Shown here piece by piece: positions 46,764 through 49,038 of a stretch of 55,410 nucleotides of DNA; the first letter of the stretch is position 1, and the number at the start of each line of letters is the position of its first letter. Source of the stretch: Rhypophila decipiens. Its lineage: Eukaryota; Ascomycota; Sordariomycetes; Sordariales; Naviculisporaceae. Both the position numbers and the translations under genes were made by a program. The DNA is taken from the NCBI GenBank assembly GCA_033297075.1, contig MU858272.1, positions 1 through 55,410 of the forward strand, given 5' to 3'. The notes below the pieces were generated by a model. That model saw only the letters and a program-made list of their open reading frames with translations, made no database searches and had not been told where the DNA came from.

Positions 46764-49038
46764 ATGGCTCGTACAAAGCAGACTGCTCGAAAGAGTACTG
46801 GTGGCCCTGGCCCTATGCTTGAAAGGTCCATCAGCTCCCAGGGCGCCCCGTCCGACCAGCCCGTCGCCAAGAGGGCCAAGACCTCCCCCACAGAAGAATC
46901 AAAGGACACGGCCGACAGCCAACCCTCTCGCATCTCAGGCATCCGCAACCTCTACAACCACTCGGTCGACCGCAACCCACAATTCGCCAAGTGGTCCGAG
47001 TTCCAGGACCTGATCCTTGAGGAAAAGCACCTCAAGCAGCGAGGTCTCGCCTACCCCCTGATCCAGCGCTTCTCCAAGAACGTCAGCGAGGACGGCGAAC
47101 AGGTCTCATGGAGCACCCACTCCATCGAGATCCAGTCGCCTCATCTCAAGGCCATCTTTGACAAGGTCTTTGTCGGCTACCCCGGCTGGTACCCCGATGC
47201 TGCTCCCTATACCTTCGTCCCGCCCTTCAAGCCCCTTGTTCACCGGTGGGATATTATTCTCGAGGCGTTCAAGGCTGCCGAAGAGGGAGGTGATGAGTCT
47301 GTCAAGGATGATATCGCTCTGACGAGACAGATTCTCGACCCGCTGCTCAGCACACACCTCTCGGCGATCAACAAGGCACGCGAGACGTTGGTCGTTTCTC
47401 ACGAGTCGCTGTGGCTGTTGCTCGCGCCGGGAAGCATCATGGTGTCCTCGGAGGCCGGCAATACTTGCGCGATGCGTCTTCTCAACGTGTCTTACACACC
47501 ACCCAACCCGCGCTGCGGTATCCCAGCGGTCTGGGACCTGCTTCTTGGCCAGTATGACTGGAATGGCAGCTACTGCGGTCTGCGTGGCGTGAGCAAGCAG
47601 ATTCACGAGTACAAGGAAGACACGCTGGTCACCAAGTTTGACGTCTACCCGCTCGAGTTTGCGCCCGGAGGAGAGAAGATTGAGCAGGAGCTGTTGGCCA
47701 GGGGACAAAATTGGGCGGATCTCAGAGGCATGCATGTGAAGCACTGCATCGGGAAGAAGTATGTCAAGGTTGTTGGCCCAGATGGAAGGATGGTGGAGAT
47801 TGCTAAGCCCGTAAGTTCATTTCGCTTCTGCTTTGTTATTCATCAATCATTCGAAACGGAATACTAACATACCTTCATTTCAGATCTCCGGTCGCGTCAT
47901 TGTCGACTCGTGGGGCTACTTTAAGGGCCAGAACCAGGTCATTCCCAAGCTGTCGCGCAACACGCTCAAGATCGAGGATAACGATGAGGAAGATGGACAT
48001 GAAGACGACGAGGATAACGATGAGGACGACGAGAACGAAGACGACGAGGACAATGACAACGACGAAGACATGCAGGATCAAGATACGCCCGCCACTTCCT
48101 CGACTGCTTCTTCTGTCATCAAGGACGAAGCCAAGCGCAACGAAGAGTTGAACACTCTCACAGCCGATGAGTTTATTCTGACCCCGCCTCGTGTCCGGGG
48201 CTTTGATCTCCGCACCAAGGAGTGGTGTCTCTTTGACGTCAACGACCTGTCCGAGCCCCACTGGGATCCTACGCCCTACGAGAAGCTCGTCCTCCCCGGC
48301 GGGATCAAGGAAAAGGAGCTGATTCTTGGATTCTCGTCCCATCGCGCCTCGTCCAACTCTCGCGCGTCCAAGTTTGACGATTTCGTCGCCCAAAAGGGCA
48401 AGGGCATCATCATCCTCTTGTGTGGTCCGCCAGGCGTGGGCAAGACACTTACGGCCGAGGCGGTCGCTGAGAAGTCGCACACGCCGCTTTACGTCCTCAG
48501 CGCCAGCGACTTGGGCACGAACCCTGCCAAGGTGGACAGTGCCCTGACCGAGGCGCTCGAGTGCTGTCAGATGTGGAACGCCGCCCTGTTGCTCGACGAA
48601 GCCGATGTCTTTTTGGAGAGCCGGAGCGCGGCTAGTCTGGACCGCAACGAGCTGGTGTCGATCTTTCTCAGACGGTTGGAGTACTACCAGGGCCTGATGT
48701 TCCTCACTACGAATCGTCTGAGCGCTATCGACGCGGCGTTCAAGAGCCGGCTGGACTTGATCCTGCCGTATCATGATCTGACCGAGGACTCGCGACGCGA
48801 TGTCTGGAAGAATTTCATTGGGAATCTACCTGCTGATGCGGCCAGCTTTGAGGACAAGGACTTTGACGAGCTTGCCAAGACCGAGATGAATGGGCGCGAG
48901 ATCAAGAATTGTATCAAGACCTCGCTTGTTCTGGTCAAGGGTGATGACGGGAAGCTTGGCATGGAGCATCTGAGGGTTGTCCTGGATATTCGCAAAAGAA
49001 TTGTTGCTGTCGAGAAGGGATTTGGAGGCTATGATTGA
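46764..49038 (+). CDS. DUF7025-AAA ATPase with histone H3-identical N-terminus
   Basis: Exons 46764-47810 and 47884-49038 give 757 residues or, by codon count of the two exons (349 + 384), 733; the latter is what the coordinates support. The first ATG in frame gives [14 protein letters not shown], the first 14 residues of histone H3, then PGPMLERS where H3 has KAPRKQ. A DUF7025-type region follows (WSEFQDLILEEKHLKQRGLA to KYVKVVGPDGRMVEIAKP). After the intron come a long Asp/Glu tract (about residues 380-417) and one AAA domain: Walker A CGPPGVGKT near 529-537, Walker B ALLLDEADVFLE near 583-594, sensor TTNR and a RLD arginine region. This family is widespread in filamentous fungi and uncharacterised, and the H3-like start is not part of it as I know it. 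The upstream in-frame TTG at 46752 is not taken as a start. Removal of Met would expose the free Ala of the H3 tail. A nuclear, chromatin-linked role is inference. Confidence 0.9.

Follow-up and report, generated by a model that had tools for sequence, protein, structure and literature searches.

A fungal DUF7025-AAA ATPase that begins with the exact N-terminus of histone H3, a candidate histone mimic

In a 55,410-nucleotide stretch of DNA from Rhypophila decipiens (order Sordariales), hereafter the window, which is contig C228 of the 45.7-Mb genome (408 contigs), we found an AAA ATPase gene whose first 14 codons specify exactly the start of histone H3, namely the initiator Met and H3 residues 1-13. 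No signalling tail of chromatin is better known than that of H3. Mimicry is the best reading of this observation, which is more general than the window gene, and the motor probably uses its H3 copy to draw in proteins whose usual partners are histones. On the more specific proposal that selection maintains the start as a mimic of the H3 N-terminus, which docks the DUF7025-AAA motor on H3-tail readers or enzymes or else displaces these, we place about even confidence.

As a sequence-only reading of this DNA had claimed, the codons at 46764..46805 on the + strand (ATG GCT CGT ACA AAG CAG ACT GCT CGA AAG AGT ACT GGT GGC) give the start of H3; the genome's own H3 gene, on contig C158, encodes the same 14 residues. 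That reading was also right that PGPM replaces KAPR after residue 14 and that the ATG at 46764 is the first in its frame, which continues unbroken into DUF7025 and, past an intron, into the AAA domain. The last in-frame stop before the open reading frame is at 46644, the sole other ATG within 300 bases upstream, in all frames, is at 46513, and the ATG at 46764 has a G at both -3 and +4. Upstream lies a pyrimidine-rich leader (46641..46763, +; 62% C+T) that contains no ATG and is unlike the H3 leader. Exon 1 (46764..47810, +; 349 codons) is followed by a phase-0 GT-AG intron (47811..47883, +) and by exon 2, including the stop codon (47884..49038, +). The spliced product has 733 amino acids and is identical over all 733 to the public R. 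decipiens protein P0001, which has the same start.

A Pfam scan found DUF7025 (PF22942; 47373..47666, +; 56.3 bits against a cut-off of 27, E 4.1e-15) followed by a single AAA domain (PF00004; 48412..48762, +; 63.2 bits against a cut-off of 21.2, E 4.4e-17) and no histone domain in the window protein, in which the H3 match stops at residue 14. By domain order and sequence the protein is a member of the DUF7025-AAA ATPase family; NCBIfam gave no family over the cut-off for P0001, P0015 or P0070. The AAA domain carries a Walker A motif, GPPGVGKT (residues 530-537; 48424..48447, +), a Walker B-type LLLDE at residue 584 and an arginine-finger-like SRLD motif, and the AAA motifs appear intact from the sequence. 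We built an AlphaFold2 model from 37 sequences (mean pLDDT 78.6), the top structural matches of which were AAA ATPases, among them p97, proteasomal ATPases, Vps4, katanin, Msp1 and FIGNL1; a profile search against solved structures was led by AFG2 homologue B and p97/CDC48 among the best 60 of 187 matches. pLDDT was below 50 at residues 1-56, 384-427 and 509-515, with values of about 30-36 over the first 50 residues, and residues 1-56 are predicted to be disordered, low confidence being a mere sign of exposure. In this model, the H3-like tail would stand on a disordered leader ahead of an intact AAA motor. The acidic tract pointed out in the sequence-only reading is present at residues 380-416 (47974..48084, +) within a predicted-disordered stretch. 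Conceivably, the basic tail could bind this tract in its own or a neighbouring subunit and so hold back the motor until the tail is captured by a reader, an arrangement with which the predicted disorder of both elements is compatible, but a need for charge would not by itself preserve the exact order of H3 and we regard such internal regulation as extremely improbable.

How far the match departs from chance and from recent copying can be judged from its codons. From residue frequencies, the chance of a 14-residue match is about 9e-17 per protein start. When the window gene and the H3 gene are compared, 8 of the 42 bases differ and all eight differences are silent; three of them fall in the serine codon, which is AGT in the window gene and TCC in H3 and so belongs to the other codon class. 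Because every difference is silent, a recent copy of H3 and an assembly join can both be set aside. Both of these candidates are further rejected by the presence of H3-like codons and ATPase in one exon with a match that ends at residue 14, by dissimilar leaders and by the public protein with the same start. Aligning the leaders of the window gene and H3 yielded a score of 19, compared with a shuffle mean of 20.2, and 203 of 300 shuffles scored as high. The earlier suggestion that an H3 5' exon had been captured together with its promoter therefore finds no support in its recent form, given leaders no more alike than shuffles and a different serine codon class. Capture of an old, short coding piece is possible, as a relative (P0003, see below) continues with AAPR where H3 has KAPR, and so is convergence; read as sequence, AAPR leans to capture. 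Across the whole genome the exact ARTKQTARK pattern matched only H3 and the window gene, and a scan with 31 H3-tail residues (E up to 10) returned three places, namely H3, a large unrelated protein on contig C40 and the window gene.

If an H3 start had once been captured for its translation start and leader, the peptide might be a neutral relic without function. A simulation that presumes descent from H3 argues against this, since the peptide survived 8 random substitutions in only 7 of 1,000,000 draws and the observed differences are silent in 8 of 8 cases; a second clade with the same start (see below) also speaks against it. Probable loss of the tail in P0002 and the partial match of P0003 beyond G13 (AAPR versus KAPR), which resembles an eroding capture, would fit a relic, a history that we nevertheless consider very unlikely. 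As far as sequence comparison can tell, the mimic appears to have been conserved by selection, with silent-only differences from H3 and retention in P0003 and in part of a distant clade, and to have been lost in P0002.

Relatives were compared as protein sequences, and database gene models may start at the wrong ATG in either direction. With an E limit of 0.001, a protein search with the window protein retrieved 16 proteins, four of which share the first nine letters of H3 at their start: P0001 (the window protein itself), P0003, P0014 and P0015. P0003, from Cladorrhinum sp. PSN259, is 81% identical to the window protein in its body and retains 14 of 14 H3-start residues; the case named in the earlier reading as refuting it, orthologues that all lack the start, therefore does not arise. 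The modifiable residues listed there, R2, K4, R8, K9, S10 and T11, are all present in the window protein and in P0003. Apart from this fully shared tail (14/14), the leaders of P0001 and P0003 are divergent and can be aligned only with gaps. P0002, from Cladorrhinum sp. PSN332, matches the window protein at 89% identity in its body but starts MPRMTGTAKLARTLS, without the H3 tail, which indicates that the tail is dispensable in the P0002 lineage; P0004-P0007, which come next nearest in the tree, also lack an H3 start. In a careful tree of nine bodies P0002 groups with P0003 (84/82), which would imply that P0002 lost the start. Since a grouping of P0001 and P0003 without P0002 survives a topology test (p-AU 0.147), we call this loss likely on present sequences. 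The stretch kept in the window's clade (clade A) extends to G13 and includes K9, making a K9-type partner possible there.

P0014 (Bisporella sp.) and P0015 (Microdochium) are only 28% identical to the window protein and 69% identical to each other. A profile built from these two proteins matched, with E no higher than 1e-10, 154 proteins, and the starts of the best 120 of the 154 were examined. Among these 120 matches, 8 start with MARTK, 5 of them with MARTKQTAR, and 112 have no MARTK start; H3-bearing matches were favoured, because two protein-search queries contained H3 words. All 8 MARTK proteins fall within one 38-row part, clade B, of a 73-row quick tree (SH-aLRT 90, not starred), in which the leader was left in and rows shorter than 550 amino acids and some listed rows were omitted. 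Among their sources are Xylariales (Microdochium), Hypocreales (Thelonectria, MARTKATAR) and Leotiomycetes (Oculimacula, MARTKQIAR), and near copies adjoin exact ones: P0141 starts with MARTKQIARK, P0140 with MARTKATART and P0148 with MARTKND, and further near-copy starts occur in P0137 and P0143 (the same 10 letters) and in P0157. The 8 MARTK rows show an identity of 0.75 over A1-K9, 0.36 in the linker that follows and 0.75 in the body.

Eight of the 38 clade-B rows have models that start late or without Met, leaving 30 evaluable rows, of which 8 open with MARTK and 5 with MARTKQTAR. Over A1-K9, two of these 30 match H3 at all nine positions, 7 at seven or more, 9 at five or more and 11 at four or more; among shuffled leaders, about 0.16% reach at least four of nine. 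The remaining 19 of the 30 have fewer than four matches, which may reflect wrong gene models for some and real loss for others. Position by position, the H3 residue is found in 12 of the 30 rows for A1, 17 for R2, 15 for T3, 11 for K4, 10 for Q5, 10 for T6, 12 for A7, 10 for R8 and 5 for K9, which places R2 first in persistence, followed by T3, by A1 and A7, and by K4, with K9 last. Because R2, T3, A1, A7 and K4 are kept best and K9 is kept poorly, this pattern suggests readers or enzymes of the H3 N-terminus or K4 as partners, and the best-kept part, the extreme N-terminus, is what N-terminus-dependent readers see. The residues kept from A1 to K4, and not K9, thus predict a class of partner. 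Of the writers, readers and erasers of K4 or K9 proposed in the sequence-only reading, the K4 side accordingly fits clade B better, and K9 is preserved in clade A.

With the first 60 residues cut away, a careful tree of 35 rows, 10 of them MARTK, rejected a single clade of all MARTK proteins (p-AU 2.7e-5). A long split with full support separates the window's clade from clade B, and each side includes rows in which the start is absent. Because the MARTK proteins form no single clade, the H3 tail probably arose at least twice in the DUF7025-AAA family, as judged from these trees. Presence and absence of the H3 start require at least 6 changes of state on the 35 rows and 10 on the 73 rows, and since such counts cannot separate gain from loss, one old gain followed by many losses is a possible alternative history.

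DUF7025 is strongly expanded in the R. decipiens genome, with 27 matches, although two pieces on contig C144 may be one gene. One- and two-strand scans of the 27 loci, taken with 1.5 kb on each side of the match, detected no H3-like start at any other DUF7025 locus; because the loci reach 1.5 kb to either side, a first exon further away may have escaped these scans. A loose match to a widened pattern, MARSRPGPT at locus L023, lies within a coding region and looks out of frame. In the open-licence PMC literature, we found no paper on DUF7025 by name and no report, among the titles listed, of an H3 start on a fungal AAA protein.

These loci bear on the idea that the tail serves as a substrate or decoy for an H3-tail enzyme, so that modification at K4 or K9 would regulate the ATPase or titrate the enzyme or, in a bolder form, a decoy would sense attacks on H3. 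The modifiable residues shared with P0003 would suit such a role, and the number of DUF7025 matches is as expandable defence families can show. The window also contains a HET-domain gene (24437-26398, -) and an NPHP3_N/NACHT-type gene fragment (1041-2084, -), in keeping with defence, but HET and NACHT-type genes are common in filamentous fungi. The frequent replacement of K9 in the distant clade and the restriction of the H3 start to one of the genome's DUF7025 loci within the DNA scanned count against a substrate or decoy, and its defence form would be argued by analogy alone; overall we judge the idea unlikely. Further genes in the window are a SNF2-related ORF (5314-6558, +), a retropepsin-like aspartyl protease ORF (41875-43107, +) and a peptidase M13 gene in two overlapping frames (52599-54925, +).

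Entry of the protein into the nucleus on a histone importin, with the basic H3 tail as import signal, was also considered, and Kap123 is known to import H3 through its tail (PMC5677370). The window protein has, however, a separate basic, nuclear-localisation-like stretch, KRAK, at residues 36-39 (46869..46880, +), which is present as well in P0002, a protein without the H3 start. Moreover, import would not need the exact order with T3, Q5 and T6, yet these residues persist in clade B, which leaves an import signal quite unlikely as the explanation.

In the mimicry model, removal of Met would expose Ala1-Arg2-Thr3-Lys4 on the flexible leader, where H3-tail binders such as PHD fingers and K4 methylation or demethylation complexes would engage it in the way that they engage H3 in nucleosomes. 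The bound tail would dock the AAA motor on reader complexes or, in an alternative outcome, the motor might pull readers off chromatin; in either case the ATPase would presumably act in the nucleus. The PHD finger of UHRF1 binds 1ARTK4 of H3 about as strongly as it binds the H3-like start of PAF15, and PAF15 recruits UHRF1 (PMC7060239); DPPA3 contends with H3 for the same finger through a VRT motif and displaces UHRF1 (PMC11187062). Of 123 human PHD fingers screened, 31 favoured the N-terminal tail of H3, either unmodified or K4-methylated (PMC6979384). The R. decipiens genome has 17 PHD-finger matches, so candidate partners exist, some of which may bind this ATPase; their presence is weak evidence, because PHD fingers occur in fungi generally.

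H3 tails also occur within other fungal proteins. The C40 protein recovered in the genome scan is a 1003-aa reverse-transcriptase-like protein (L008:4559-7567, -) with an internal H3 tail at residues 425-456, which corresponds to H3 residues 2-32 with 29 of 31 identical and is flanked by acidic stretches. Searching with 45 residues around this tail and an E limit of 10 yielded 200 proteins, and the 120 listed contain many histones, whether real or mispredicted; we studied 27 of the 120, chosen as non-histone-looking or unclear. Among these 27 is a conserved family found in Apodospora, Cudoniella, Periconia, Clonostachys, Lachnellula, Paraphaeosphaeria and other ascomycetes, as well as in metagenomes. 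Our 15-row set comprises the R. decipiens protein and 14 homologues, with P0080, a near-duplicate of P0079, left out. In it, R2, K4-R8 and S10-R17 are invariant, K9 is kept in 13 of 15 and K27 in 14 of 15, and A1 in none of 15, figures that yield no frequency because all members were found by their tail. A model of one family member had a mean pLDDT of 63 with the tail in a low-confidence stretch (381-482), and its best structural matches were R2 and LINE-1 reverse transcriptases (E 3.5e-6, with a query TM-score of only 0.22-0.27). As they offer no free A1, internal copies cannot work exactly like the AAA tails.

Internal H3 tails were seen as well in the VIT-VWA proteins P0066 (Clohesyomyces aquaticus), P0069 and P0081, with Q5-S31 unchanged and K4 replaced by R in all three. 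Long H3 tails occur in the metagenomic proteins P0071, P0103 (SET), P0106 (HECT+SPRY), P0091, P0094, P0095, P0100, P0107 and P0111, at the very N-terminus in P0091, P0100 and P0106; some of these proteins are perhaps of protist or viral origin.

The long internal tails in other fungal families suggest a recurring non-histone use of H3 tails. Taken further, and only tentatively, fungi may repeatedly fit H3 tails on unrelated machines as plug-in chromatin addresses, with the window motor seizing and extracting H3K4-type readers or enzymes. The cellular H3 mimics known to us are few, and most of them are short or degenerate copies. The protein described here joins an exact H3 N-terminus to an ATP-driven motor; a relative retains this start, which one family seems to have acquired twice. 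Such proteins could be mistaken for H3 by antibodies raised against its N-terminus, and by H3-tail enzymes.

Among similar known systems, PAF15 (PCLAF) is, like the window protein, a non-histone whose free N-terminus copies the H3 start; its N-terminus binds the PHD finger with a Kd of 2.2 micromolar compared with 1.5 micromolar for H3 (PMC7060239). PAF15 differs in its VRTK start, a short partial copy, and in being a small animal replication factor and not an ATPase, and for the window protein the reader is a candidate only. To our knowledge, UHRF1, the reader of PAF15, is not known from R. decipiens. More widely, SNAG-domain proteins with LSD1, the ARKT motif of G9a and viral H3 mimics use H3-tail mimicry to engage readers or enzymes; these copies are mostly short or degenerate, several are centred on K9, and we know of none on a DUF7025-AAA ATPase. 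DPPA3, with an H3 ART-like motif, could remove a reader from chromatin (PMC11187062), but its motif is internal, three residues long and accompanied by helices, and no ATP-driven motor is involved. ATAD2/Yta7, to which the sequence-only reading had likened the window protein, shares with it an AAA motor and an acidic stretch. That group is, however, characterised by a bromodomain and two AAA modules, and membership was rejected, since Pfam found a single AAA domain and no bromodomain in the window protein. Within its own DUF7025-AAA family, the window protein differs from most members among the matches listed, which have no H3-like start. It shares with PAF15 and DPPA3 an H3-like sequence on a non-histone protein, in its own case at the N-terminus; histone mimicry is well supported by the complete match in P0003, the H3-like starts of a distant clade and the silent-only differences from H3.
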